Positions 1-42,299 of a stretch of 42,299 bases of DNA are shown here, in pieces; position 1 is the first letter of the stretch; the number at the start of each line of letters is the position of its first letter. The translations under genes were made by a program, and so were the position numbers. Location of the stretch: IMG/VR virus record IMGVR_UViG_3300038696_000186, positions 1-42,299 of that record; one strand, written 5' to 3'. This DNA comes from a virus. The notes beneath the pieces are model-generated. The model saw nothing but the letters and a program-made list of their open reading frames with translations, searched no databases and was not told where the DNA came from.

Positions 1-136
1 TTGTAGTCCCGAGAACATGGAGTAGGCAATAATCCAAATTCTTTCCCGTCTATGTGGCGCACCAATGGAGCAAGCTGATATAATATGCCATTCCGCATTA
101 TACCCGATCGCCCGTAAATCTTTGAGGACTCTTGCA
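1..136. repeat. Contig-end overlap, left copy
   Basis: The first 136 bases recur as the last 135 bases of the window. The only difference is one G missing in the right copy, near position 126 (GAGGACT here, GAGACT there). The repeat lies inside a methyltransferase gene whose reading frame continues from base 1 to base 42164. This is what an assembler leaves when it fails to close a circular or circularly permuted genome. A physical terminal repeat is less likely, because it would sit inside a gene and would not be expected to differ between copies. Confidence 0.9.
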
Positions 137-2084: not shown

Positions 2085-3470
2085 ATGAAAAAATTATCTC
2101 CTTCACAAATCAAAGAGAGGCTTTTCGCGTCAATCGCCTTGGAAAGCGACCTCGAAGTCCCCGCGCCTCCCGGATGCGTTTACCGCCCTTTTCAGATCGC
2201 GGGAATTCATTACATGGTTTCAAGTTTTGGGAATCGTCACTTACTCGGCGACCCAATGGGCGTCGGGAAAACTATTCAAGCGATAGGGCTTATAAATTAT
2301 CGAGGTTACAAGCGCGTGACGATAGCTTGTCCCGCGTCCCTTGTTCTCAATTGGAAAGACGAGCTTTTGACGTGGCTCGTTAATGAGACAAAAATTCATA
2401 TTATAAAGAACGGAAAAGACGTAATCCCGGAAGACGCCGAAATCGTTATCGGCTCTTATAGCCTTGTTTCCAACGCTAATATATTGAAACAATTACGTTA
2501 TGGCATGGAAACCGAGCTTTTAATTTGTGACGAATCTCACTATTTAAAGAACCCGAAAGCCGGAAGAACCAAGACGATTTTAGGCTCGGGCGGCTTAATG
2601 AAATGCGCGAAAGAGGTCATTTTTATTTCCGGGACTCAAATGCTTAACCGCCCGATTGAGCTTTTCGGGATAGTTGATTCGGCCTGTCCGGTCGCTATCG
2701 GTTTTCGCAATTGGTTTGAATACGCAAAAGATTTTTGCGGGGCCTATCATGACGGCTTCGGTTGGAACGTCGACGGGGCTTCCAATATGAACGAACTCGG
2801 ACAACGCCTTCGCTCTTATTTAATGGTTCGAAGAAGGAAAGAGAAGGTTCTCCCTCAACTTCCCGACAAGGAAGCGCGAATCGTTTTCCTTGACCCAAAC
2901 CCGGCGAGTAAAAAAGCCGCGAAGAAAATGGCGAAATTCTCTCTTGACGAAATAGAGAAAAATAAAGGAAACGCCGTCGGCTTTGAAGGTCTCTCGGAAG
3001 CAAGAAGAGAACTCGGAGAAGCGAAGGTTCCTTCGGCGATTAAGTATTTAAAAGAGAAGCTCGAAAGCGACGACGGAAAAATTATCGTCTTCGCTCACCA
3101 TAAAGACGTCATAAAGAACCTTGAAGAAGGTCTCGCCGATTATGGTCTCGTTTCGATCAAAGGGACGACCGCAAAAGAGAAGCGTCACGCGAACGTAAAG
3201 GCGTTTCAAAACGACCCGAAAATCCGCGTCTTTGTCGGCTCCATTACGGCGGCGGGAGTCGGCTTAACATTGACGGCGGCTTCTTATATCGCCTTTGTCG
3301 AGGCGTCTTGGGTCCCGGGAGAAAATCAACAAGCCTTTGACCGCGCTCATAGGATGGGACAAAAGAACTTTGTTCTCGGGGAGTTTTTAACCTTCGCCGG
3401 AACGCTCGATGAAAAGATTTTAAAAAGTCATATTGTTAAAAACAAAGTTATCCGGGAGATTATGGGATGA
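2085..3470 (+). CDS. SNF2-family DEAD/DEAH-box helicase
   Basis: A 461-aa SF2 helicase of the SNF2 type common in phage replication regions. Motif I is GDPMGVGKT (Lys62), motif II is DESH (about residue 149), motif III is SGT, and motif VI is QAFDRAHRMGQ (about residue 415), the signature of SNF2 proteins. There is no extra DNA-binding domain. The frame opens at 2037, but the first 16 residues look like translated promoter; the ATG at 2085 starts a normal sequence, though without a clear Shine-Dalgarno site. It likely remodels DNA or protein-DNA complexes in replication. The next gene overlaps it by four bases (ATGA). Confidence 0.9.
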   Translation: MKKLSPSQIKERLFASIALESDLEVPAPPGCVYRPFQIAGIHYMVSSFGNRHLLGDPMGVGKTIQAIGLINYRGYKRVTIACPASLVLNWKDELLTWLVNETKIHIIKNGKDVIPEDAEIVIGSYSLVSNANILKQLRYGMETELLICDESHYLKNPKAGRTKTILGSGGLMKCAKEVIFISGTQMLNRPIELFGIVDSACPVAIGFRNWFEYAKDFCGAYHDGFGWNVDGASNMNELGQRLRSYLMVRRRKEKVLPQLPDKEARIVFLDPNPASKKAAKKMAKFSLDEIEKNKGNAVGFEGLSEARRELGEAKVPSAIKYLKEKLESDDGKIIVFAHHKDVIKNLEEGLADYGLVSIKGTTAKEKRHANVKAFQNDPKIRVFVGSITAAGVGLTLTAASYIAFVEASWVPGENQQAFDRAHRMGQKNFVLGEFLTFAGTLDEKILKSHIVKNKVIREIMG

Positions 3471-4264
3471 ATGGAGAAGAGAAGGTCACAAAAAAAGACC
3501 TATTAGAAATTGCTATTTTAATCACAATTATGGGTCTAGTTCTCGTTTTCCTTTCGGGATGCGCGACGACTCCCCCAACAACGCCGCAAGAAGAGACGAA
3601 GCCGGTCGGACCCACAAAGCCCGAAGAGGCGGTCGAGTTAACTTTTAAGAAGGGAAGGAAAAGAATTCTTTGGTCGACTTATTACAAGACGCCCAAGCTT
3701 AAAAGCGGGACCGGCTCTTTTTGTTTAAGAGACAAAACCGCGAAATGTATTTCCGGAGGAATCCGCCACGACCAAAAATGTTTCGTACAAATGCAAGGCT
3801 CGGGCGTGATCGACGGAAAAATGTTCGCCTATCATTCCGCAAGTTCTCGCGGGATTCCCTCTTCGGACTCTTGCGCAAAATACGGAAACGCTTGGAAAGG
3901 CTCGGGGAACGTCCGGTTTTATATCTCGGAAGTTTTTAAATATGGGAAGGGCTCTTTCAATAACCCGCTCGTCCCTTATAAGTCGATAGCGTGTCCGCGT
4001 GAGTTTAAGAATAATCATAAATTTTTTATCCCGGACGCCAAAGGCGTAGTTCTTCCCGACGGTTCGACCCACAACGGCGTCTTTGTTTGTCATGATAGGG
4101 GCGGGGCGATTAAGGGAAATCATATTGATACTTTTTTGGGGCTCATAGACTATTCGACAAATTGGAAAATGTTCGACTGGAATAGAGGCGCGAAAAATAA
4201 CCCTTTTAAACACGTTAAATCAACTAAGGGCGGGACTTTCACCGCCTACGACATTAAGGAGTAA
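3467..4264 (+). CDS. Lipoprotein with a 3D (MltA-like) domain
   Basis: A 265-aa predicted lipoprotein. A charged start is followed by a hydrophobic stretch and the lipobox LSGC, with Cys32 as the lipidation site, then a Pro/Thr/Glu-rich linker. The C-terminal part has the three-aspartate pattern of 3D domains: IPDAKG, CHDRGGAIKG and HIDTFLG, in order. In MltA and related proteins this double-psi barrel fold cleaves peptidoglycan glycan strands. The gene overlaps the helicase by four bases and sits in the early operon rather than with lysis genes. It could remodel the wall, block superinfection or help lysis; the position argues against a simple endolysin. Confidence 0.8.
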   Translation: MNGEEKVTKKDLLEIAILITIMGLVLVFLSGCATTPPTTPQEETKPVGPTKPEEAVELTFKKGRKRILWSTYYKTPKLKSGTGSFCLRDKTAKCISGGIRHDQKCFVQMQGSGVIDGKMFAYHSASSRGIPSSDSCAKYGNAWKGSGNVRFYISEVFKYGKGSFNNPLVPYKSIACPREFKNNHKFFIPDAKGVVLPDGSTHNGVFVCHDRGGAIKGNHIDTFLGLIDYSTNWKMFDWNRGAKNNPFKHVKSTKGGTFTAYDIKE

Positions 4265-12738: not shown

Positions 12739-13539
12739 CTATCTATTATAATCGACGAGAACTTTGTCGGTCGCCGTCAACGTGTATTCGAAAGTCACGG
12801 TCGAACCGGCGATTTGATAATCGTTCCCACTTCCTCGCTGCATTCTTAAACCATTCAAATAGACGCGCTCGCTTCCTACGACGGGCGGATTATTTAGGTT
12901 CCCGATAGCCGCTTGACCGGAAGTTACGACGCCCACTTCGCCCCAAACTGGAATCCCTCTATTTTCAAGAGTGACGAGCCTTTGGTCAAGGACGCGACCT
13001 TGATTCGCCGACAAAGGAGCCGCCGCATCGGTCGAAGTTAAGTTGTCGATAACGTCGCCGGTTCTTAAAATGTCCGGGCTTTCCGTATTGTCGACGAGGT
13101 CGAAATCCGCGCTTACGTCGATAGCGAGGTCCGTCGCGACGTCTTTGTTTGCGATAATCATGTCGCCCGCATTAACGGCGAGATTATTCGTTCCGTCCGT
13201 GATTTGACCCGACGAAGTTATATAAAAGAAATCTCCGACTTCGAGTCCCGCTCCGCCGTCAAGGTAGGCGTTTCCGGTCGTATTCCCCGAAAGGTCGGAA
13301 CCGGCGGCGAGTCCGCCACGGTATGAGAGACCGCCCGAGACCGAAGCCGCGAGCGAATCAAGTTGAGCTTTCGTAACCGCGTCCCTTGGGTTAACGCCGT
13401 CTTGAAGTCCCGTAATGGTCGCGTCGTTCGCGCCGTTTGTGATATTCCAATCGGACCCGTTTAAGAAGTTCGAGACGAGCTTCGCGAGTTCGATTGTTTG
13501 GTCTTTAATTTGTAAGTTTCTAATTTGAGTAACGGCCAT
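12739..13539 (-). CDS. Tail fibre/hinge-like protein
   Basis: A 266-aa protein with typical fibre sequence: RNLQIKDQTIELAKL at the start, then GLQDGVNPRDAVTKAQLDSL, a phrase seen in many fibre shafts. This is followed by Gly/Asp/Asn-rich strands and a C-terminal beta domain (YLNGLRMQRGSGNDYQIAG) resembling the pentraxin-like or T4-type fibre ends. It is likely a structural fibre subunit. The ribosome-binding site is AAGGAGACC before the ATG. Confidence 0.65.
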   Translation of the reverse strand: MAVTQIRNLQIKDQTIELAKLVSNFLNGSDWNITNGANDATITGLQDGVNPRDAVTKAQLDSLAASVSGGLSYRGGLAAGSDLSGNTTGNAYLDGGAGLEVGDFFYITSSGQITDGTNNLAVNAGDMIIANKDVATDLAIDVSADFDLVDNTESPDILRTGDVIDNLTSTDAAAPLSANQGRVLDQRLVTLENRGIPVWGEVGVVTSGQAAIGNLNNPPVVGSERVYLNGLRMQRGSGNDYQIAGSTVTFEYTLTATDKVLVDYNR

Positions 13540-13583: not shown

Positions 13584-13958
13584 TTATTCCTTGCCTTGAG
13601 AAGTTTTAACGTTTTTGTCAATTATTTTGACGGTTCGCTCCCAATTTGAAATCGTTCCGGAGCATTTTTTTGACCGCTTGCATATTTTAATTATGAAAGA
13701 TTTGATTTCGACCCATGAATCAATCGGCATTAAGACCATGAAGGGGCGAAGCTCAAACCAAGTTTTCCCGTTAAAAAGTTTCACGTCGTCGACTTCGAAC
13801 TCTTCCGAAGAGATCGTCTTCACGCAAAAGCCTCTTCCGGGATTTATTTCCGCGCACAAAGGGACGTCGGGAGGCGCGGTCCCACAAGAATTAATTAGTA
13901 AGACGAACAAGCTCGCGAAAAGCATTTTTAAGATTCGTCTCGGCGCGTTTTTTATCAT
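13584..13958 (-). CDS. Small lipoprotein, outer-membrane spanin candidate
   Basis: A 124-aa protein with a basic start, a hydrophobic core and the lipobox INSC, with Cys25 as the lipidation site. The mature part has two pairs of cysteines (PLCAE, GFCV, KICKRSKKC). It starts inside the preceding gene in a different frame, with a 68-base overlap, as Rz1 does with Rz in lambda. Lipidation, small size and overlap suggest an outer-membrane spanin component. At about 100 mature residues it is larger than most Rz1 proteins and is not Pro-rich, so this remains a candidate. Confidence 0.6.
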   Translation of the reverse strand: MIKNAPRRILKMLFASLFVLLINSCGTAPPDVPLCAEINPGRGFCVKTISSEEFEVDDVKLFNGKTWFELRPFMVLMPIDSWVEIKSFIIKICKRSKKCSGTISNWERTVKIIDKNVKTSQGKE

Positions 13959-14846: not shown

Positions 14847-15605
14847 TTAAGGACAAGTTTTATAAGCGTCGAGCTTCGCAAGAACCGCCGTTTTGTCGGC
14901 TTCGCGAATGAGAGTCCCATCGGCGGAGAGCGCGACAAGGTCCGCTCTTACGTCACAAAGACTTCCGTCGAGAAGGTCGTCTCTCATAGTCTTGAGGTTT
15001 TGACGAAGCGTCCGCCTTTGAGCTTTTGAGAGCCCTTTTTGCTTGTTCAAAAGTTGAATTGAAGCGTAAATTTCACGCCCGAAGTTCATGTCTTTTACTT
15101 GGTTTTGGACCGCTTGACGTTGCGCTTTCGCCGCCGCTCGCTCCGCTCCCCATTGGGTTTTCAAAGTCCCATTGACGACCGCTTTCGAATAACCGGCGGG
15201 CTTTTGCTCGTAGCGAAGAAGCCTTGAACAATAAACTTCGGAATTGTCTTCGGCGCGGATAGCTTCGCCTTTCCCTACGCAATTTAGGGCGGCGAGTTTT
15301 TCTTGACAATCGTCTTCAAGACTTTTCGTCTCGTCAACTTCGGTCGTCTCCGGGTCGTCGGCGGTCGCCGCGCAAGCGACGACGTCGGTTTTCGAATAGA
15401 CGGGTTTTGTTAAATCGTTGACCATGACTTCTTCAAGCTCAATAAAAACCGGAGCCGAACCAACGGGAACGCGATAACATTTCCCGGGACAAGCGGCTCG
15501 CCTTGAAACCTTGGTCCAATTCTTTGAGAGAATCTCCGACTCGCGGACCCATTGAGCCCGCGCCGTCGTAATTGTTAAAAGTATGAAAGGGATTAAGAAC
15601 TTCAT
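14847..15605 (-). CDS. Secreted cysteine-containing protein with Sec signal peptide
   Basis: A 252-aa protein with a clear signal peptide (MKFLIPFILLTITTARA, cut before Gln). The mature part has CPGKC near the N-terminus and further cysteines (VVACAA, DDCQEK, LNCVG, YCSRL, SLCDV, KTCP), so disulphides in the periplasm are likely. The second half is helical and basic. It lies directly after the large fibre-like gene, which also has a signal peptide, and has the same strong leader (AAGGAGAAAAATAA before the ATG). Not recognised. It could be a partner or chaperone for that protein or act on the host envelope. Confidence 0.75.
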   Translation of the reverse strand: MKFLIPFILLTITTARAQWVRESEILSKNWTKVSRRAACPGKCYRVPVGSAPVFIELEEVMVNDLTKPVYSKTDVVACAATADDPETTEVDETKSLEDDCQEKLAALNCVGKGEAIRAEDNSEVYCSRLLRYEQKPAGYSKAVVNGTLKTQWGAERAAAKAQRQAVQNQVKDMNFGREIYASIQLLNKQKGLSKAQRRTLRQNLKTMRDDLLDGSLCDVRADLVALSADGTLIREADKTAVLAKLDAYKTCP

Positions 15606-15623: not shown

Positions 15624-17885
15624 TTATTTATTTCTTGAGCAGTAAATCGAAACGGACTCGTTCGCCGTAGCCCCTCCAGTGTTTCGAGTTTGAATCCTAA
15701 CGTTTTGGGGGAGGGTGTTCGTTACAACGCTCGCATTATCGTCTAAAGTTATACTGACGACTCGGTTTCCGCCGAGAACGCTTACTCCGCATTTAAATCC
15801 GGGTTCCGTAAGATTCAAGTTAAAAATTCCGGTTGAGTCAAAAGACAAAGAGTCAACGAACCAACAATCCGGGTCGGAAGAATCGAAAGACGGAGTCCCG
15901 GAAGGGTTTAACAGGAAGCAAGCCCCTCGTTCGGCCCCATAACGAGCGCGGGTCGAGACTTGATTAAGAAGTCTTGGAGTTGCGACGTCGTTTTTAACGG
16001 GACTAATTGAAAATTTTCCCGTCTGCATATCGTTAGAATTATTTCCGACGGAATTAGAGAGTCTATAAAAGGCGGTCCCATTCGTTGCTCCGTAAACCGC
16101 AAAAGAGTATTCTCCGATTGAGCTTATTTCAAAAAGTTCGCAAATGTTAAAGCCGTCCCAATTTGAACTGTTACCGGATGAGTGAACGGTCTTGTCTTGG
16201 ATAATCAAACCACTATTTGAATTGGAAACCATAACAAGTTTAGTCGAATAGACAGTCCCGTTCCCGTCCCCTATACCGTCGACACAAACTTCGACCTTTC
16301 CTGATACGGGGATATTATACCTAAAACCGAAAATAGTATCGGTCGCGCAATTACCTCCAACAGGTTGCTCGACCCCGGCGCAAAGTTCGGAAAAACCTTC
16401 CCCCTCAATTACGCCAGTATTTCCCAAGCTTATTTGAGCAAAGGTTGAACTTGCGTTGGAGGCGTCGGCAGCATTTGACCGGTAAATTATAGCGTCTTTT
16501 TTTGTAAATCCCGCTTGTTCGGGCGTGAACGCTTCTTGGGTTTCTTGAGAAGTTGGGAAGTAGTAAACGTCATATTTAAAGCTATTGTCTGTTGCCTCGA
16601 TTATTGCAGCATCAGAGCCATTAGAGGTCTTAGACTCCAAAACAATCTGTGCGTTGGTGAGGTCTTGATCTGTGTTAATTGAAAAAACTTTTACAGGAGA
16701 CCCTCCAGAAGTGTTATCAAAAAATTTCATGTCTTGGCTAATAAACTGACCGCCATTGACATTTAGTCTGTGTGAAATCTGTGTGCCTGTTACACCACCT
16801 GTATTGTCTTGGAAAAGACCTGTTGCAACAATTTGATAGTGGCCCTTTCTCATAAAATTAATTTGAAAGTCCGGTCTTAGGCCCGCTTGATAGTCAGTTA
16901 TGTTGCCTGTGATTATTCTGAGGTTGTCGTCACAATCATTATCTGGACCGTAGCCTCCAATATAGCTTGTGGAGCCATCGAGCCATTGACAACTAGTTGT
17001 TGGCTGCCATTCAATCGACCCGACAAAGTGAGCACCTTTTCCAACGGGAGAGATGTTTTTGTTCGACCCTAAATAAGCGTCTTCGAGATCAATCGTTCCG
17101 GCTCCCGTTGACTCAAAACGAAGTTTAAAGACGTCGCCGCCTTCACAGGGAAAAGTAACCGTCGGAGCTTTTAGAAAAGCCGTAAGGTCCGAAAAATCGC
17201 CGGAAGCGACGTCAATAAAAGTTCCCGGATTCCCGGGGAGGTCTTCCTTTAAAACTTTAAGAGTGAAAGCGTTATCGCCTTGATTATATTTTACGTCGGC
17301 CATGCAGCCGAAACCCAAGTCGTCGGAAACCGTGACCGTGTCACTTTCAACGTATTGAGCCGCGCCCGTTGCAACGAAGCGAGCATACTTCAAATTGTCT
17401 TCGCGTCCGTTGGTATGGGCTTCTTGAGTCAACGTCCCGCCCGAATTGGTCCAATTCAAAATCGGACTCCCCGGGTCTTCAAAAGAAGAGTTCGAAAGGA
17501 GATTAACTCCGCCGCTTCCGCCGCTTCCCGAACCGCTTCCGATTTTCTTTATAAGAGTTCCGTCGTTTGAAAAAGACAAGGCTCCGGCGGCGTTGTCCCA
17601 AAATAATTTCGGGTTATTCGCGCCCGCGCCTACGTCAAAAGATAGGGTCTTGTCGGAAGCCGCTCCGTCTCCGAGAGAGACATCGTTCGGACGTAAGAGA
17701 AGACTTCCGTCTCCCGAGTTCGCCCGGATTGAAGGGTTTGTCCCCGCGCCCGTGTCAAAGATTAACTCTTTTATTGAGCCGTTCGAACCGCCTCCGAATT
17801 GAAGAACGTCATTTGTGAACTTCTTCGGAGCCGCTGCGAAGACCGCAAGGGAAAAGAGAATTAAAAAAAGAATGAGTTTTTTCAT
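15624..17885 (-). CDS. Large fibre/adhesin-like protein with Sec signal peptide
   Basis: A 753-aa multi-domain protein. Residues 1-18 form a signal peptide (MKKLILFLILFSLAVFAAA). Residues about 20-120 hold shaft-like repeats (ELIFDTGAGTNPSIRANSG, LSFDVGAGANNPKLFWDN), then a Gly/Ser linker (about 115-128). A galactose-binding/CBM-like domain follows (LLSNSSFEDPGSPILNW, about 130-275), then a C1q/TNF-like jelly-roll domain (about 282-442), a second jelly-roll-like region (about 450-650) and a C-terminal beta domain. Such carbohydrate-binding and C1q-like domains fit host recognition. A Sec signal on a phage fibre is unusual, since virions assemble in the cytoplasm. Base composition shifts over the C1q-like domain. 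Confidence 0.8.
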   Translation of the reverse strand: MKKLILFLILFSLAVFAAAPKKFTNDVLQFGGGSNGSIKELIFDTGAGTNPSIRANSGDGSLLLRPNDVSLGDGAASDKTLSFDVGAGANNPKLFWDNAAGALSFSNDGTLIKKIGSGSGSGGSGGVNLLSNSSFEDPGSPILNWTNSGGTLTQEAHTNGREDNLKYARFVATGAAQYVESDTVTVSDDLGFGCMADVKYNQGDNAFTLKVLKEDLPGNPGTFIDVASGDFSDLTAFLKAPTVTFPCEGGDVFKLRFESTGAGTIDLEDAYLGSNKNISPVGKGAHFVGSIEWQPTTSCQWLDGSTSYIGGYGPDNDCDDNLRIITGNITDYQAGLRPDFQINFMRKGHYQIVATGLFQDNTGGVTGTQISHRLNVNGGQFISQDMKFFDNTSGGSPVKVFSINTDQDLTNAQIVLESKTSNGSDAAIIEATDNSFKYDVYYFPTSQETQEAFTPEQAGFTKKDAIIYRSNAADASNASSTFAQISLGNTGVIEGEGFSELCAGVEQPVGGNCATDTIFGFRYNIPVSGKVEVCVDGIGDGNGTVYSTKLVMVSNSNSGLIIQDKTVHSSGNSSNWDGFNICELFEISSIGEYSFAVYGATNGTAFYRLSNSVGNNSNDMQTGKFSISPVKNDVATPRLLNQVSTRARYGAERGACFLLNPSGTPSFDSSDPDCWFVDSLSFDSTGIFNLNLTEPGFKCGVSVLGGNRVVSITLDDNASVVTNTLPQNVRIQTRNTGGATANESVSIYCSRNK
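16560..17040. other. Compositionally foreign segment inside the fibre gene
   Basis: This stretch is in frame with the fibre gene and covers the C1q-like domain (about residues 282-442). By hand count it has about 18 CAG or CTG trinucleotides in 480 bases. The neighbouring 480 bases (17101-17580) have 2, and a portal segment (33661-34140) has none. It also uses more TGT, TGC and CA-rich codons than the rest. This suggests recent replacement of one receptor-binding domain from another source. Confidence 0.7.
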
Positions 17886-18485
17886 TTACGCCACCTCGTT
17901 TATAACATTGATTTCAGTATTTATTCCGTTGTCTTGAATCTCGCCGTCGTTATCGAAGAAGTAACCTTGGAAGAACGCCGTATTTTTCGACGTCGCTTGG
18001 ACGTTAAAAACGAAGTCTCCCGAATTGTTAAAACCGACAAAACGCCCGCCGATTATTTGGATTCTATTCGTGTTTAAAAGATCAAAGGCGAGCGGGATAT
18101 TATCGACCGTCGTTATTTGGACGCCCGGTTTGAACTCGATAACGAGGTCCGTCAAGCCGTCAATTTCGACCGCGTCGTCGAGAACTTGGTCGTTCGTGAC
18201 TAAGATTTTACTTTGAGAGCCTACGCGCGCGAGAGCGGTCGGGAGGTCCGCATCGGTTCCGCCGATTCCGACAATCGCGTCATAATTGTTTTGCTGCGCT
18301 GCGACCGCGTCAATTTCTCCGTCAAAATGCAAAACCCATTGATAAACTAGGTTTTGCCAGTGATTAAAAAACTCATGAGGCGGAAGCTCCGCGACCCATC
18401 CTTGAGCGTTCTTCGCCGCGCCCGGGTTTTCAATCGCCGCGCCCGGGTCCGTCGCCCATATTGGTAGTGAACTAGGTTTCGCCAT
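17886..18485 (-). CDS. Tail fibre protein, short beta-helix type
   Basis: A 199-aa protein starting SSLPIWATDPGAAIENPGAA, the typical N-terminus of phage fibres that attach to the baseplate. It continues with EFFNHWQNLVYQWVLHFD, then Gly/Asn/Ile-rich strands (about 90-199) like a short beta helix or its cap. It is likely the baseplate-attached fibre. The next gene encodes the exported large fibre-like protein. The leader AAGGAGAAATAATC before the ATG is shared with the capsid and tail tube genes. Confidence 0.75.
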   Translation of the reverse strand: MAKPSSLPIWATDPGAAIENPGAAKNAQGWVAELPPHEFFNHWQNLVYQWVLHFDGEIDAVAAQQNNYDAIVGIGGTDADLPTALARVGSQSKILVTNDQVLDDAVEIDGLTDLVIEFKPGVQITTVDNIPLAFDLLNTNRIQIIGGRFVGFNNSGDFVFNVQATSKNTAFFQGYFFDNDGEIQDNGINTEINVINEVA

Positions 18486-18525
18486 GATTATTTCTCCTTA
18501 TAAAAAGTTTAAGCCCTTATTCGCT

Positions 18526-19209
18526 TTACGTCACGCTTTGAAATTTTCCCCCGAAAATATGGTCTTTGAGGGTTCCAAAACCAGCGACGTCGTTTCGGTT
18601 CGGGTTTTCGAACGAGAACGGTCTCGCCGTGTCATATAAAAAGGCGAACTCGCCTCCGATAACTTGGTTTATGTCCGAGAACCCTTGGGCCCCGGGCGCG
18701 CCGACAAAGCCAAAAGGGTTTGTCTTTGAGAATTGACCGATTCGGTCAACGCGGATTCCCGCTCCGACGACTCTTTGAAGTCTTTCGAGAATGAAGCTCG
18801 CCGTAATTGGGTTAATGGTTCCGTCGGATAAAATAATCATTCCGGCGGGGAAGTGTTCTTGAAGTTCCGCGCGATTCGCTCGCGTGATAATCTTATAAAC
18901 GTCGACAACGCGAACCGTCTCCCCTTGAGAAACGTTCTCCCCTATTTTTGCATAGAGTAAGACCCGATAAAAAATGTCGTCGAATCCGAGACGCTCTTGT
19001 CCGACAATGGTTCCGAAATCGTCAAGAACTTGACCCTCCGCCGTGTCAATCCAACGGCCTTCGAAAAGAGAGTGAGAAGCGTCTTCAATGTCTTGGACTT
19101 GTTTAACGAAAGCGTCAAGAATGGCCGTAAGATTTGGCGCGTCCTTATATTGGGAAATAAGTCGGTCGCGCGCTTCTTGAATATGGTTTTCAATTTTTAC
19201 GACAATCAT
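18526..19209 (-). CDS. Baseplate protein, DUF2612/tail-protein-I-like
   Basis: A 227-aa protein that follows baseplate J, in the place of gpI of P2-type phages. Its segments RWIDTAEGQVLDDFGTIVGQ and DIFYRVLLYAKIGENVSQGE match the DUF2612 family of baseplate proteins that I recognise by pattern. The C-terminus (PFGFVGAPGAQGFSDINQ, FGGKF) probably contacts the fibre. The role would be to link wedge proteins to the fibre network. Confidence 0.75.
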   Translation of the reverse strand: MIVVKIENHIQEARDRLISQYKDAPNLTAILDAFVKQVQDIEDASHSLFEGRWIDTAEGQVLDDFGTIVGQERLGFDDIFYRVLLYAKIGENVSQGETVRVVDVYKIITRANRAELQEHFPAGMIILSDGTINPITASFILERLQRVVGAGIRVDRIGQFSKTNPFGFVGAPGAQGFSDINQVIGGEFAFLYDTARPFSFENPNRNDVAGFGTLKDHIFGGKFQSVT

Positions 19210-19212
19210 TTT

Positions 19213-20679
19213 TTAAATTCTCCCGACCAATACGCGAGAAGTGTCCCACTCGGAAATCTCCGCCGCGTCTATGTCTATATTATCCGAGAGAGTCGGACCC
19301 GCCGAAGTTCCGACGCGAATCTCGACGTCGGTTATCCCGGGAATAGAATCAATCGAACAAATGAGTTTCGGGAAGACAATAACGTCCGCCCCAATTCCGA
19401 GCCCGTTTCCGAAAGCGACGATCGCCGCTTGAACTTGGTCGTCCCCGTTCGCCGGATAATTCGCGTCGACGGAAAGGTCGATCTCGACAAAGATTTGGAT
19501 TCCGGTCGGTCTTGAAAATTTGACGTCTTGGAAGAAGCCTTGAGAGTCCGTAATTTGTTGCGTAACCGAGCCGAAAGTTTCAATCCCGGCGGGCTTAATC
19601 GCGAAAATAGTCTCGGCGATTTCGTTAACGTCTCCGCCTTGGACGACCATTTCAAAAGACTTTGGGGGTCTCCCGTCAACCTCGATAAAAGTTATATTTT
19701 CAAAACCGACGACGGCGTTCACGCCGTCAAGGTCCGCAAGAGTTGAGAGAATAGAACCAAGCGTTCCCGCTCCCGCTCTTTGAAGAGAGTTCTCTCTTCT
19801 TTGTTTAAGGCTCGCGTCGTCTTCAATGTCGCTTCCGATTAAAGCGTCGGAAGGATTAAGGACGGCGTCAAGTCCCGAAATTGGGTTTTCGATAACAGTC
19901 AAAGCGCGAGCGGGAGCGACGTTCGCTCCGATCTCTTCGGCTTCGAGAGTCACTTGTCCCGAAGAAACTCCCTTCGTCGTCTCGACAAGGTTTGTCGTGA
20001 CGGGAGTCGCCGTTTCGGTCAACGTATTTTCCACAACGGAGAGAAGAGGTTTGTCCTCGCTTCCGTCGGCCCCTTGGAAAGTAATAACAAAGCCGGTTAA
20101 AAAGTCGCCCGCCACAAGGACGGACGACAAGGAGGAAAGAGCGTTGAGGGCGTTCTCAACGTCCGTCGCAAGTGAGTTAAAAGTTAATAGGGTCGTGTCC
20201 TCGCTATTAAGTGAGAGGCGAAAAGAGCCCGCATCCGGGACCGCCCCAAAAGTAAGCGTTTGGACTTCGTCAATTCCCGCGATCAAAGTTAAATCAGTCC
20301 CTAAGACAAAACGAGAAGGCGAGTCGTTTACAACGGAGAAGACCGAGCCCGAAGGAATAACCGTTCCGGCGGTTCCTTTTAAAATAAGGTCAACCGTTGA
20401 GCGCGTCCCCGGTTGACGAGTTAAGCCCGTAAGACTGACAACGTTGTCAAGAGTTAATCCTTCCGCCGTCGCCGGGTATTGGGAACTATAAACCGCTTCG
20501 GAGAGTTCCCATAACTCGGACTCCCGTTCGGAGAAAATCCCGACGAGTTGTCCGAGAACCGAACTCGGGAGAAGGTTAATCGAATTCCCAAGTTCGCTTT
20601 TAAGGGCGTTTTCGATTTCGGTTTGAATGTCCGCGATTCGTTTAGAGACGAATCCGCTTGTCGTTAATCCAAAAGTCAT
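19213..20679 (-). CDS. Baseplate J-like protein
   Basis: A 488-aa baseplate wedge protein of the gpJ family. It begins GFVSKRIADIQTEIENALKS and has LWELSEAVYSSQYPATAEGL then TLDNVVSLTGLTRQPGT, the conserved start of baseplate J proteins. The C-terminal third has ISGLDAVLNPSDALIGSDIE and DDASLKQRRENSLQRAGAGT, also typical. It forms the periphery of the contractile baseplate together with the gp25-like protein directly upstream, whose stop adjoins this start. Confidence 0.93.
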   Translation of the reverse strand: MTFGLTTSGFVSKRIADIQTEIENALKSELGNSINLLPSSVLGQLVGIFSERESELWELSEAVYSSQYPATAEGLTLDNVVSLTGLTRQPGTRSTVDLILKGTAGTVIPSGSVFSVVNDSPSRFVLGTDLTLIAGIDEVQTLTFGAVPDAGSFRLSLNSEDTTLLTFNSLATDVENALNALSSLSSVLVAGDFLTGFVITFQGADGSEDKPLLSVVENTLTETATPVTTNLVETTKGVSSGQVTLEAEEIGANVAPARALTVIENPISGLDAVLNPSDALIGSDIEDDASLKQRRENSLQRAGAGTLGSILSTLADLDGVNAVVGFENITFIEVDGRPPKSFEMVVQGGDVNEIAETIFAIKPAGIETFGSVTQQITDSQGFFQDVKFSRPTGIQIFVEIDLSVDANYPANGDDQVQAAIVAFGNGLGIGADVIVFPKLICSIDSIPGITDVEIRVGTSAGPTLSDNIDIDAAEISEWDTSRVLVGRI

Positions 20680-21027
20680 TTATAAGTCCTCGTCAAAAAG
20701 TAAAATTCCGAAAATAGTCAACGCCGTGAACTTCAAGGAGAGTTCTCTTCCGTTAATCTCAAGTAAGAAACTTTGAAGCTCGATAATCCCCGGAGAGTTT
20801 AAAATCTCGTTTTTGAAAAGGGAATCGACCGTGACCGGGTTCGGGTTCTTCTTCAAAACTTCGTCGAAATAGGGAAGCCCTTCTCGCGTGTCGAGGAACC
20901 ATTCTCCGCGAAAGACCCGGAGGCGTTGCCTTAATACTTGGGCGACTTCGTCGACGCCGCTTATTAGTTTCAAATTATTGTTTTCGATTAAAACGTCGTT
21001 CGTCGAGTCGATAGCGATTGAACTCAT
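20680..21027 (-). CDS. GPW/gp25-like baseplate wedge protein
   Basis: A 115-aa protein of the gp25/GPW family (also called DUF2634 in some phages). The key stretch is EVAQVLRQRLRVFRGEWFLD followed by TREGLPYFDEVL, and the usual end with two strands (GRELSLKFTALTIFGILLF). gp25-like proteins connect the baseplate hub to the sheath and start sheath assembly. It is immediately upstream of baseplate J and one base overlaps the 88-aa gene before it. Confidence 0.9.
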   Translation of the reverse strand: MSSIAIDSTNDVLIENNNLKLISGVDEVAQVLRQRLRVFRGEWFLDTREGLPYFDEVLKKNPNPVTVDSLFKNEILNSPGIIELQSFLLEINGRELSLKFTALTIFGILLFDEDL

Positions 21028-21293
21028 TATGTGATTCTCCCGTCAATGGTCGCGGCGAGAGTCTCGCCTTCTCCGCTTATTGGGTTATTTTGGTCGTCTT
21101 CAAAAGTTCCCGGACCGACCCCAATGTCCCCGACTTCGAACTCTATTTGAGCCCTTCCCACTTCCGCGACAATCTCTTCCGCCCATATTAAAAGGGAGGC
21201 TTTGACTTTTGTTTCGTCCGCCGGGTCAAGAGTGACGCCGACAAAAAGTCTCGAAAATAAGTTGTCCCGAAGTCGGGTCGTGTCCATAGGCAT
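21027..21293 (-). CDS. Hypothetical small baseplate-region protein
   Basis: An 88-aa protein between the spike and the gp25-like wedge protein. It starts TTRLRDNLFSRLFVGVTLDP, has a helix (SLLIWAEEIVAEVGRAQ) and ends in acidic, Gly-rich loops (IGVGPGTFEDDQNNPISGEG). Position argues for a small baseplate component or assembly factor. I do not recognise the family. Confidence 0.65.
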   Translation of the reverse strand: MPMDTTRLRDNLFSRLFVGVTLDPADETKVKASLLIWAEEIVAEVGRAQIEFEVGDIGVGPGTFEDDQNNPISGEGETLAATIDGRIT

Positions 21294-21300
21294 GAAAAAA

Positions 21301-22104
21301 CTACTCCTTAAAAGTGTCTATTTTCGTTTTCAAAACCGGAAAGGTTTGTCCAAATCCGACGAGCGGTTGTAAGCCGAGAAGCGTTATCGTTTGAGCCCCG
21401 ATAATTTCAGTCAATAAATCCGAAAGGAGGGAGACAAGTTCTTCGGAAGAGTTCTCGACTTTGACTTTCCCGCTTGGTTTAAGTGTAAAAGTTAAGTCGC
21501 CATTCGTGAAGTCGAGTTCTCCGTCGGGTTTAATCGTCAACGTTCCGGCGTCGTTTTGATAGCTGAATTCGCCGTCGGCCTTGATTAATGTTTTCCCTTT
21601 TTCGTTTTCGGCTTTAATGTCGCCGCTTTTTTCAAGTGACAAAAAGTTTTTCTCATTTGTCAATTCAAAAGAAAATGCTCCGCCGCGCGGAGAAAAGCCT
21701 TCGGACTTTGGGAAGCCTCCGGGAATTCCGTAAGCATCTGACAAATTGAATCGTCGAGGGTCATTAGGGGAAACCACGCCGCCCGATTCTTTCCAAGAGT
21801 CAAGGCTCCTTTGTGAAAATATAAGACTGACATAATCGCCCTTTTCCAAATCGAAGTGAATATGATGGGAAGCCGAGCGAGGAAAGATAATAGGGACGTT
21901 ATTTATAATCGGGAGGTCAACGATTCTTCCGTCAATATATTTTCGTTTCAAAGCCGGTTGAACTTTCGCGGTTTGGTTTTCTCGGTTATAAGATTCGATA
22001 ATCCCGGGAAGGCAAACGTTCACGTCGGCGAGACGTGAGTCGATAGCTTGGTTTAAAAGTTCGGGGAGAGTGATTCTCTCGCTTCCCTTTTTTGTCCCGG
22101 TCAT
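21301..22104 (-). CDS. Gp138-type membrane-puncturing tail spike
   Basis: A 267-aa protein. The N-terminal OB-fold part (DVNVCLPGIIESYNRENQTA, then VPIIFPRSASHHIHFDLEKG) matches Gp138-family spikes, which pierce the outer membrane on contraction. The middle (about 155-215) is a run of short strands with regular SGDIKAENEKGK, ADGEFSYQND and PSGKVKVEN units, as in a trimeric beta-helical needle. The frame opens at 22125; ATG at 22104 is preferred because it overlaps the hub stop (ATGA) with GGGGAGG just upstream. Confidence 0.85.
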   Translation of the reverse strand: MTGTKKGSERITLPELLNQAIDSRLADVNVCLPGIIESYNRENQTAKVQPALKRKYIDGRIVDLPIINNVPIIFPRSASHHIHFDLEKGDYVSLIFSQRSLDSWKESGGVVSPNDPRRFNLSDAYGIPGGFPKSEGFSPRGGAFSFELTNEKNFLSLEKSGDIKAENEKGKTLIKADGEFSYQNDAGTLTIKPDGELDFTNGDLTFTLKPSGKVKVENSSEELVSLLSDLLTEIIGAQTITLLGLQPLVGFGQTFPVLKTKIDTFKE

Positions 22105-22964
22105 TCGATGGCCTCCCCTTCGCAAGTGAATTTCCCGTCTTTATTATCTCCCGAGAAGGTCAATTTGCGAACCTTAAAGAACGCCGGAATAAGACTTGAT
22201 TCGCCTATCTCGTCAAGTTCCGAAAAGATCGCGATTTCTCTCCCCACTTTTACGTCGGGATTAAGAAGACAAGAAAAACGAATCACGTCGGCGAGTTGAG
22301 CCTTCCCGGGTTTGTTTTTCTTTTCGCGAAAAGCTTTAAGAAGCCCCGTTTCTTGAGTTAAAAGGACGGCTTCTTCGCTCGTCTTTCCGTCTTCGGGGAG
22401 GATAATTAACTCCCCATTTTGGACGGACCATTCGAGCCCCTCTTTTTGAGTTAACTCGTCGAGTCGGTCTTTGACTTTTCCCGTCGCCGAATATCCGGAA
22501 TTAAAAATTTTGTCGCCTATCCCTTCGATGGCCCCTTTTGTGATCTCCAAAGCGTTTGCGAATTCATCTATAACGGACCCAACGGAGACGCCTTCGGCGA
22601 ATGATTTGTCGAGAGTCTTCTCGGCGAGGACTTTGGTTCCTTCTCCGATTTTAAAAGTCGTCACGACTTCGGTTCCGCTTCGCTGCGTTGAAATGTCGAG
22701 AACGTCTCCCGAAGAAATCTCTTTAATGAGGGGGACTTCATTAAGTCCCGCATAGCCCGCGCGAAGTTTAAAGACGAGCCCTTCGTCTTTGAGGCGGTCT
22801 CTTGTATTTTTCGAAAGATTTGTAATTGTGATTCGACCGGGATTCGCGTTTGAATCGGCGGTCTTTGTGATCGAAAAACCGATTTTTAGTTCACTAAAAA
22901 CAAAGCCTTCTTCGCCGGGTTTCCCGACTTCGAATTCGACAACGCGATTAAAAAGGGTCGTCAT
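22101..22964 (-). CDS. Baseplate hub protein
   Basis: A 287-aa protein with the layout of myovirus hub proteins (gpD/gp27/gp44-like). It opens VVEFEVGKPGEEGFVFSELK, then SNANPGRITITNLSKNTRD, a pattern typical of hub proteins of small myoviruses. Next come GDVLDI and a helical middle domain (about 120-190), and the end has strand segments. It would sit as a trimer at the end of the tube and hold the spike encoded next, with which it overlaps by four bases. Confidence 0.8.
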   Translation of the reverse strand: MTTLFNRVVEFEVGKPGEEGFVFSELKIGFSITKTADSNANPGRITITNLSKNTRDRLKDEGLVFKLRAGYAGLNEVPLIKEISSGDVLDISTQRSGTEVVTTFKIGEGTKVLAEKTLDKSFAEGVSVGSVIDEFANALEITKGAIEGIGDKIFNSGYSATGKVKDRLDELTQKEGLEWSVQNGELIILPEDGKTSEEAVLLTQETGLLKAFREKKNKPGKAQLADVIRFSCLLNPDVKVGREIAIFSELDEIGESSLIPAFFKVRKLTFSGDNKDGKFTCEGEAIE

Positions 22965-23284
22965 TCGTCCGCCTCGTCATATAAGAGTTGGTGAGACTCT
23001 CCAAGGTCTTCTCTTCCCGGGCTCTCGTTATTCTCTTCGCGGTTAAAGATTAAGAACTCGTTCTCCGGTTGTCCCGGAACTTGATAGCGACCTATTAAGC
23101 CGACGCCCGTTTGAAGCGGGATTCCCATAATTAAGTTATTTTCTTGTTCGTCTTGAATGTCAAAGAACCACCTATTCGGGCGAAGGGAATAGCGAAACGA
23201 CAATATAAAAATAACGCCGTCAAGCTCGACTCTTTGTGAATAGCTTGGGAGATCATTTCGAGTAAAAATTCTTTGAATCGCCAT
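22961..23284 (-). CDS. Baseplate plug-like protein (DUF6983 type)
   Basis: A 107-aa beta protein. VELDGVIFILSFRYSLRPNR and WFFDIQDEQENNLIMGIPLQ match the pattern of small baseplate plug proteins found between the Dit-like protein and the hub in many myophages. The C-terminus is acidic and probably disordered. It overlaps the hub gene by four bases. Confidence 0.75.
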   Translation of the reverse strand: MAIQRIFTRNDLPSYSQRVELDGVIFILSFRYSLRPNRWFFDIQDEQENNLIMGIPLQTGVGLIGRYQVPGQPENEFLIFNREENNESPGREDLGESHQLLYDEADE

Positions 23285-23286
23285 AA

Positions 23287-23970
23287 TTAACCGCCCGCCG
23301 ATTTGAAAAGGTCAAATAAAATCGAACTCCCTTGTTCTTTGAGATTCGCAATTGACTTGGTCTTCTTCCCGATTGACTGTTTTTTCGGCTTGGAATGGTT
23401 CGACCGCTCTTCCGGAATGTCAATCGTTTGACTTTCGACCAAGCGGATGACTTCACATTGGGCCGTGAATCTTAAAGAGTTTCCGTCCTTGTAATTGACG
23501 GGGATTGTCAAGCTCGTAATGACCACGTCGTCGTATTTTTTAAGCCCGGTCAAGACCGTGAAAGGGATTTTATTTTTCCAAAAGTTTTCGAGTTGAATAA
23601 GCGCGACAATCCTTTTTAAAGCCGCTCCCGCGTCCGGAATAAGTCCGCCACTCAACGCCCCGACCGCTCCGGAAAGCGCGCCGAAGCCCGCATTTTGGAC
23701 CGTCAAAGCTATGTCTCGAATGTCGTTCGAGGGAAGAGGGGCTTCCGAGATAATCCCTTGGATTTGAAACTTCTCGTTTTGGAGGTTTATATTATCCGCG
23801 ACGTTTGCCCCACTTTCAATTTCGTTTTGAGTTACTCTTGCAATTCTTTGATGCGACTCGCTTACGGTCGCGTCAAGTTGTAAGAAGCCGATTTTTCCTC
23901 CGGCTTCGAGTTCATAAAAAAGAACCGTTCTTTTTACGAGAGTCCCAATTGCATTTCCAAAAATGGCCAT
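23287..23970 (-). CDS. Dit-like tail protein / tail-baseplate connector
   Basis: A 227-aa protein whose N-terminal half carries KIGFLQLDATVSESHQRIAR, the start of a Dit-like domain found after tape measure genes in small myoviruses. The middle has KKYDDVVITSLTIPVNYKDG, another conserved stretch near VTGLKKY. The C-terminal 40 residues are basic and likely disordered (SKPKKQSIGKKTKS). It would form the ring joining tube to hub. It follows the tape measure gene directly. Confidence 0.75.
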   Translation of the reverse strand: MAIFGNAIGTLVKRTVLFYELEAGGKIGFLQLDATVSESHQRIARVTQNEIESGANVADNINLQNEKFQIQGIISEAPLPSNDIRDIALTVQNAGFGALSGAVGALSGGLIPDAGAALKRIVALIQLENFWKNKIPFTVLTGLKKYDDVVITSLTIPVNYKDGNSLRFTAQCEVIRLVESQTIDIPEERSNHSKPKKQSIGKKTKSIANLKEQGSSILFDLFKSAGG

Positions 23971-42164: not shown

Positions 42165-42299
42165 TTGTAGTCCCGAGAACATGGAGTAGGCAATAATCCA
42201 AATTCTTTCCCGTCTATGTGGCGCACCAATGGAGCAAGCTGATATAATATGCCATTCCGCATTATACCCGATCGCCCGTAAATCTTTGAGACTCTTGCA
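42165..42299. repeat. Contig-end overlap, right copy
   Basis: This copy matches positions 1-136 except for one G missing near 42290. Single-base differences at a GG pair at the very end of a contig are typical of low read support, so the left copy is taken as correct; it keeps the methyltransferase frame open. The unique genome is then 42,164 bases. Confidence 0.9.

Follow-up and report, generated by a model that had tools for sequence, protein, structure and literature searches.

A tip-swapping fibre with a predicted Sec signal peptide in the tail gene region of a contractile-tailed phage and its relatives

Introduction

Assembly of tailed phages is taught as a cytoplasmic process in which the tail fibres normally remain inside the cell until it bursts, and ordinary tail fibres carry neither a signal peptide nor cysteines of the kind described below. 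Receptor blockers of the T5 Llp type are small phage-encoded lipoproteins or membrane proteins of the envelope. We know of no tailed phage that builds a receptor-binding fibre in the periplasm, and no title or abstract that came up in searches of open-access papers concerned an exported tail fibre in tailed phages.

Exported fibres with exchangeable tips have been described in the predatory bacterium Bdellovibrio bacteriovorus, which displays mosaic adhesive trimer (MAT) fibres on its surface (PMC10769870). Behind a signal peptide these proteins have a conserved N-terminal domain of ~130 aa, a trimeric beta-prism or beta-helix fibre, and a tip of the TNF/C1q-like, C-type lectin, beta-sandwich or S74 type (PMC10769870). 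The tip of the MAT fibre Bd2734, solved as PDB 8OKW, adopts a divergent TNF fold that is similar to a C1q-like protein, and TNF-like MAT tips contain disulfides (PMC10769870).

The fibre analysed here is encoded by a phage genome of 42,299 bp, a whole IMG/VR record that we refer to as the window. It resembles the MAT proteins in its signal peptide and the constant N-terminal domain of ~100 aa that follows (the two N-domains being likened by description), in its phage-fibre-like, beta-rich body with exchangeable C-terminal tips, and in a tip domain of the TNF/C1q type whose family matches the Bd2734 tip (8OKW, E=2e-8). Unlike them, it is encoded by a contractile-tailed phage among late tail genes, adjoining a baseplate adaptor and a co-exported partner; it shows no sign of display on a predator surface; and no S74 chaperone domain was found in it, whereas the MAT set includes S74 tips. 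The locus also recalls the J-I-fibre region of P2-like phages, where a tail-fibre N-terminal domain (phrog_2282) is encoded next after J and I and a variable tip lies behind a constant part. In the present locus, by contrast, the adaptor stands alone as a short protein, and a signal peptide and 12 cysteines are found in the long variable fibre. Finally, it is like the T5 Llp type in being a predicted exported phage product that could act on the host surface, and unlike it in being a large tip-swapping fibre in a tail operon.

Genome and tail gene region

The two ends of the window overlap by 136 bp at 99% identity (1..136 versus 42165..42299) without an exact end repeat, so the genome is probably complete and circularly mapping. 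It encodes the tail sheath, baseplate hub, baseplate J, gpI-like, major capsid, portal-type and terminase proteins of a contractile-tailed phage, with the late genes, starting at the terminase, on the minus strand as far as ~10 kb. None of the annotated genes was recognised as an integrase and no tRNA was found in the window; relatives of the terminase and portal proteins are scattered across many hosts. The genes that concern us are the following.

19213..20679, minus strand: baseplate wedge J
18526..19209, minus strand: baseplate gpI-like protein (DUF2612)
17886..18485, minus strand: short tail-fibre adaptor of 199 aa, Cys-free, matching phrog_2282 (tail fibre N-terminus), directly upstream of the fibre gene
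15624..17885, minus strand: predicted Sec-exported fibre, 753 aa, 12 Cys
14847..15605, minus strand: second predicted exported protein, SP252, 252 aa, with signal peptide MKFLIPFILLTITTARA cut before QW
13584..13958, minus strand: small lipoprotein with a lipobox-like LINS followed by C, outer-spanin-like, in a presumed lysis segment

The small lipoprotein has a homologue, 45% identical, in the related phage L032, and a further fibre-like gene, this one without a signal peptide, lies at 12739..13539 of the window. Outside the late operon, the plus-strand gene at 3467..4264 encodes a product with a lipoprotein-type N-terminus, a 3D domain (PF06725, E=1.8e-6) and seven cysteines, perhaps an envelope or peptidoglycan enzyme.

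A conserved module behind baseplate J and I

Used directly as a query, the fibre found no relatives in phages or plasmids, nor, with single sequences, in the PDB; two scans of bacterial and archaeal genome collections by peptide patterns returned none. Relatives surfaced only through the neighbouring genes. The first, an 8-kb contig (L011), was reached via SP252, and a wider set of 80 loci came from a search with an alignment of the baseplate J protein.

Behind J and I, the trio of adaptor, exported fibre and exported partner, or at least the first two, occurs in seven other IMG/VR phage lineages. The complete order of J, I, adaptor, fibre with signal peptide and partner with signal peptide is present in the window, L011, L027, L028, L029, L030 and L036. 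Adaptor and fibre also occur in L032/L033, a single lineage in which the second exported protein was not found, and in L026, whose contig stops inside the fibre gene. Across lineages the adaptor measures 199-204 aa, the fibre 623-775 aa and the exported partner 213-257 aa, and in most members the start of the fibre gene overlaps the adaptor stop codon or directly adjoins it. In the J tree the carriers group together on the branch nearest the window, with J identities down to ~48%. Elsewhere in the wider set, the adaptor N-terminal domain in most cases forms part of a long fibre (254-855 aa), and the gene that follows encodes no exported fibre; in some outgroups (L079, L080, L086, L091 and L098) the adaptor is short (154-162 aa) and likewise has no exported fibre beside it.

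Fibre-like genes without signal peptides lie further on in L027, L029, L032 and L036. These phages may therefore have another receptor-binding protein, and the idea that the exported fibre is their sole one was dropped.

Downstream of the module, three relatives encode a putative metalloprotease-like protein with HExxH-like motifs (L027 11616..12212, L028 16488..16982 and L036 13015..13617), followed in two by an exported or lipoprotein-type protein of 236-240 aa (L027 12209..12931 and L028 16979..17689). In one further contig (L034, IMGVR_UViG_2264265215_000001) the tail genes are spread over both strands, their order is broken and a gene fragment is repeated; this contig is probably a chimeric assembly.

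Start site and signal peptide

The initial annotation had placed the fibre gene at 15624..17885, and the ORF lies exactly there, on the minus strand, encoding 753 aa. Its ATG immediately follows the stop codon of the gene before it, with a Shine-Dalgarno-like GAGGTGG upstream. An artefact of start-site choice is ruled out as the source of the signal peptide, since residue 103 is the first place where another in-frame start codon occurs.

The textbook signal peptide reported in the same annotation likewise stood up. The N-terminus MKKLILFLILFSLAVFA, followed by AAPKK, has the best signal-peptide score among the 51 genes of the window by a home-made n/h/-3,-1 rule (not SignalP). Composition-matched random N-termini, a null that is also home-made, reach this score with P ~1e-4, and none of 202 internal Met positions reaches it; together with conservation in the homologues, the random-N-terminus null rules out a chance hydrophobic N-terminus. 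The runner-up is SP252, which had previously gone unremarked. The fibre N-terminus has the positive n-region, short hydrophobic core and small -3/-1 residues of a Sec substrate; as transmembrane helices go, the hydrophobic stretch is short, and the protein has no other hydrophobic segment that could form one.

All eight homologous fibres have a signal peptide with a usable -3/-1 cut, though its residues differ. Between the window and its nearest relative, L011, the signal peptide has diverged at a dN of 0.37 with its hydrophobicity kept, and the 13 residues behind the predicted cut have a dN of 0.00.

Domains of the fibre

The fibre is divided as follows, in order from the N-terminus.

17835..17885, minus strand: signal peptide, residues 1-17, predicted cut between AVFA and AAPKK
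17541..17834, minus strand: constant N-terminal domain, residues 18-115, Cys-free in 8/8 homologues, 39-78% identity to the window
17508..17540, minus strand: Gly/Ser linker GSGSGSGGSGG, residues 116-126, where tip swaps have their recombination border
17046..17507, minus strand: CBM-like jelly roll, residues 127-280, with Cys194 and Cys247, from an AlphaFold2 model of moderate confidence
16506..17033, minus strand: C1q/TNF-like domain, residues 285-460, with Cys299 and Cys318, family profile match to 8OKW
15981..16505, minus strand: beta-rich segment, residues 461-635, 4 Cys
15627..15980, minus strand: C-terminal domain, residues 636-753, 4 Cys, all common to L011

The fibre-shaft repeats, CBM-like domain and pair of C1q-like domains of the initial annotation survived in part. 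Conserved, Gly/Asn-rich, beta-like segments do span residues 22-115, but no internal repeat was detected by self-BLAST. A CBM-like fold remains plausible for the next domain, for which there was no Pfam match: the AlphaFold2 model of residues ~127-285 (pLDDT 65, pTM 0.66) has as its best PDB match the carbohydrate-binding module TmCBM61, at a TM score of 0.47-0.51. The full-length AlphaFold2 model of the fibre, built with two sequences, was unusable (pLDDT 36). One C1q-like domain, at residues 285-460, is upheld by the family profile, but the second, at 461-635, gained no support in any search.

A profile built from the eight fibres gave a single significant match to a solved structure, 8OKW, across the 285-460 domain. 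Taken alone, the L033 copy of this domain matches 8OKW (34% over 135 residues) and the window's own copy falls below significance; the profile without L033 still matches (4.5e-7 against 5000 shuffles). The homology is thus one of domain families, as judged from these alignments, and reaches the window through its relatives. In the C-terminal domain, Cys656 and Cys749 are invariant in all eight fibres.

Two features expected of a tail fibre were found: the place after J and I in the late operon, and a constant N-terminus with exchanged tips. A baseplate-attachment N-terminus or membership in a known tail-fibre family was not. The attachment domain (phrog_2282) lies on the adaptor and has no recognisable counterpart on the fibre; no PHROG family was found for any of the eight members, nor a Pfam family for the two members scanned.

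Exchange of tips

Over 8,599 bp, contigs L026 and L027 share 98.9% identity, which breaks off within the Gly-rich linker, at residue 135 of the fibre; beyond that point their tips are unrelated. The window and L011 are 81% identical up to about residue 123, similarity is then lost through the tip, and likeness returns in the last codons of the fibre and in the partner gene. Within the window fibre, GC3 is lowest (0.26) at aa 351-400, inside the 285-460 domain. From these alignments, the part behind the Gly/Ser linker is a swap cassette, with the signal peptide and N-domain held constant, as would be expected of a protein that binds a variable surface.

Cysteines and predicted export

After removal of the predicted signal peptides, all eight full-length fibres have an even number of cysteines (10, 10, 12, 12, 12, 12, 14 and 14) and all seven partner proteins have exactly eight, although one cysteine of the partner shifts place between subfamilies. 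The only odd raw counts, 15 in the L036 fibre and 9 in the L028 partner, arise from a surplus cysteine inside the predicted signal peptide. Mature counts are therefore even in 15/15 proteins; these are related, so that they are not fully independent observations, and the counts step by two. In the window, the four proteins with export signals contain 2.30 Cys/100 aa versus 0.32 in the structural region. The pattern is that expected of cleaved, disulfide-bonded proteins: even mature counts, surplus cysteines confined to signal peptides and Cys-poor virion neighbours together point to cleavage and oxidative folding outside the cytoplasm. We infer that the fibre is very probably exported by Sec, cleaved and locked by disulfides.

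Export had been suggested earlier, with masking or decoying of a receptor, action on the envelope or joining of virions at lysis as possible roles. Export gains from the signal peptide in every homologue, the even mature cysteines and the co-conserved second exported protein.

Role of the exported fibre

The data presented above lead us to propose a model whereby the phage makes an adhesive fibre, probably trimeric, late in infection, and the host Sec pathway would carry it out of the cytoplasm. Its signal peptide would be cut off and its tip domains locked by disulfides in the periplasm or outside the cell, with SP252, exported together with it, as a candidate assembly factor or cap. The constant N-terminal domain would hold the fibre to a partner and the swappable tip would bind a surface. 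Virions would be built in the cytoplasm with the short adaptor on the baseplate, to which the periplasmic fibre would dock when lysis mixes the two compartments.

Joining of virions at lysis is the end use that we favour, with a confidence of about half, because of the tail-fibre position, the tight coupling to the adaptor gene and the comparison with sister phages, and because it is the exported fibre that is exchanged, beside an adaptor that is short and constant in this branch. For the scheme as a whole, in which the protein is an exported, distal, receptor-binding fibre that joins virions at lysis, we put the chances close to even. Against it stand the lack of a precedent known to us and the other fibre-like genes without signal peptides in these genomes. 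In addition, the adaptor could itself form a complete short spike, some outgroups have short adaptors without an exported fibre adjoining, and the closest relative of one tip domain is a cell-surface adhesin and not a virion protein. Were the fibre part of the virion, it would be the first case known to us of a tail part matured outside the cytoplasm.

The strongest alternative, a less probable one that still carries weight, is that the fibre is exported and kept on the infected cell, where the N-domain would anchor it at the host envelope as in MAT. There it could mask or occupy the receptor, with superinfection exclusion or protection of progeny from debris as the outcome, or alter cell adhesion. 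A signal peptide, a constant N-domain and an exchangeable TNF/C1q tip make up the MAT architecture (PMC10769870), one tip domain is homologous to a MAT tip at family level, and fibres without signal peptides are found elsewhere in these genomes, all of which suit such a display. The fibre gene nevertheless holds the tail-fibre position beside the adaptor, and with no integrase recognised a lysogen fitness factor would have no obvious use. If the fibre is used in this way, the adhesive fibres with which Bdellovibrio meets its prey would have a counterpart carried by a phage.

Since one tip domain is homologous to a secreted adhesin of bacteria, it could also be that the signal peptide is a relic of a bacterial secreted fibre, and that the protein is now made and assembled in the cytoplasm. 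This is improbable, since the signal peptide is retained in 8/8 members across deep divergence (J identity down to ~48%) with residues drifting under hydrophobic constraint, the mature part has even cysteine counts and the partner protein likewise has a signal peptide.

The alternative raised in the initial annotation, that the N-terminus, strongly hydrophobic and with a fixed start site, is an uncleaved anchor in the virion or baseplate, is highly improbable given its short hydrophobic core, the -3/-1 cleavage motif in 8/8 homologues, the confinement of odd cysteines to signal peptides and the conservation of the residues just behind the hydrophobic stretch and not of the hydrophobic ones.

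Wider occurrence

If the parts join only at lysis, this lineage would build its receptor-binding fibre in two compartments, combining a cytoplasmic body with a periplasmic, disulfide-bonded fibre that has a dedicated co-exported partner. We put this forward tentatively, at somewhat less than even confidence. Export of fibre-like proteins may recur among environmental phages and, if two-compartment assembly is true, the signal peptides on fibre-like genes of L028, L053 and L087 would make it a recurrent strategy. If phage fibres and the surface adhesins of bacteria exchange tips, this would bear on the origin of the adhesins.

Among distant J relatives, large fibre-like or repeat proteins with signal peptides lie near the tail genes of L053 (14101..15657) and L087 (15087..17219 and 17227..18606). 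The L028 phage (L106, record G012) encodes two more large fibre-like ORFs, at 20080..21978 and 21988..23814, with the signal peptides MKLLLSFFLISFNLFA and MKVFLLLLFLSTKLFA; both are Cys-poor and unmatched by the fibre family profile.
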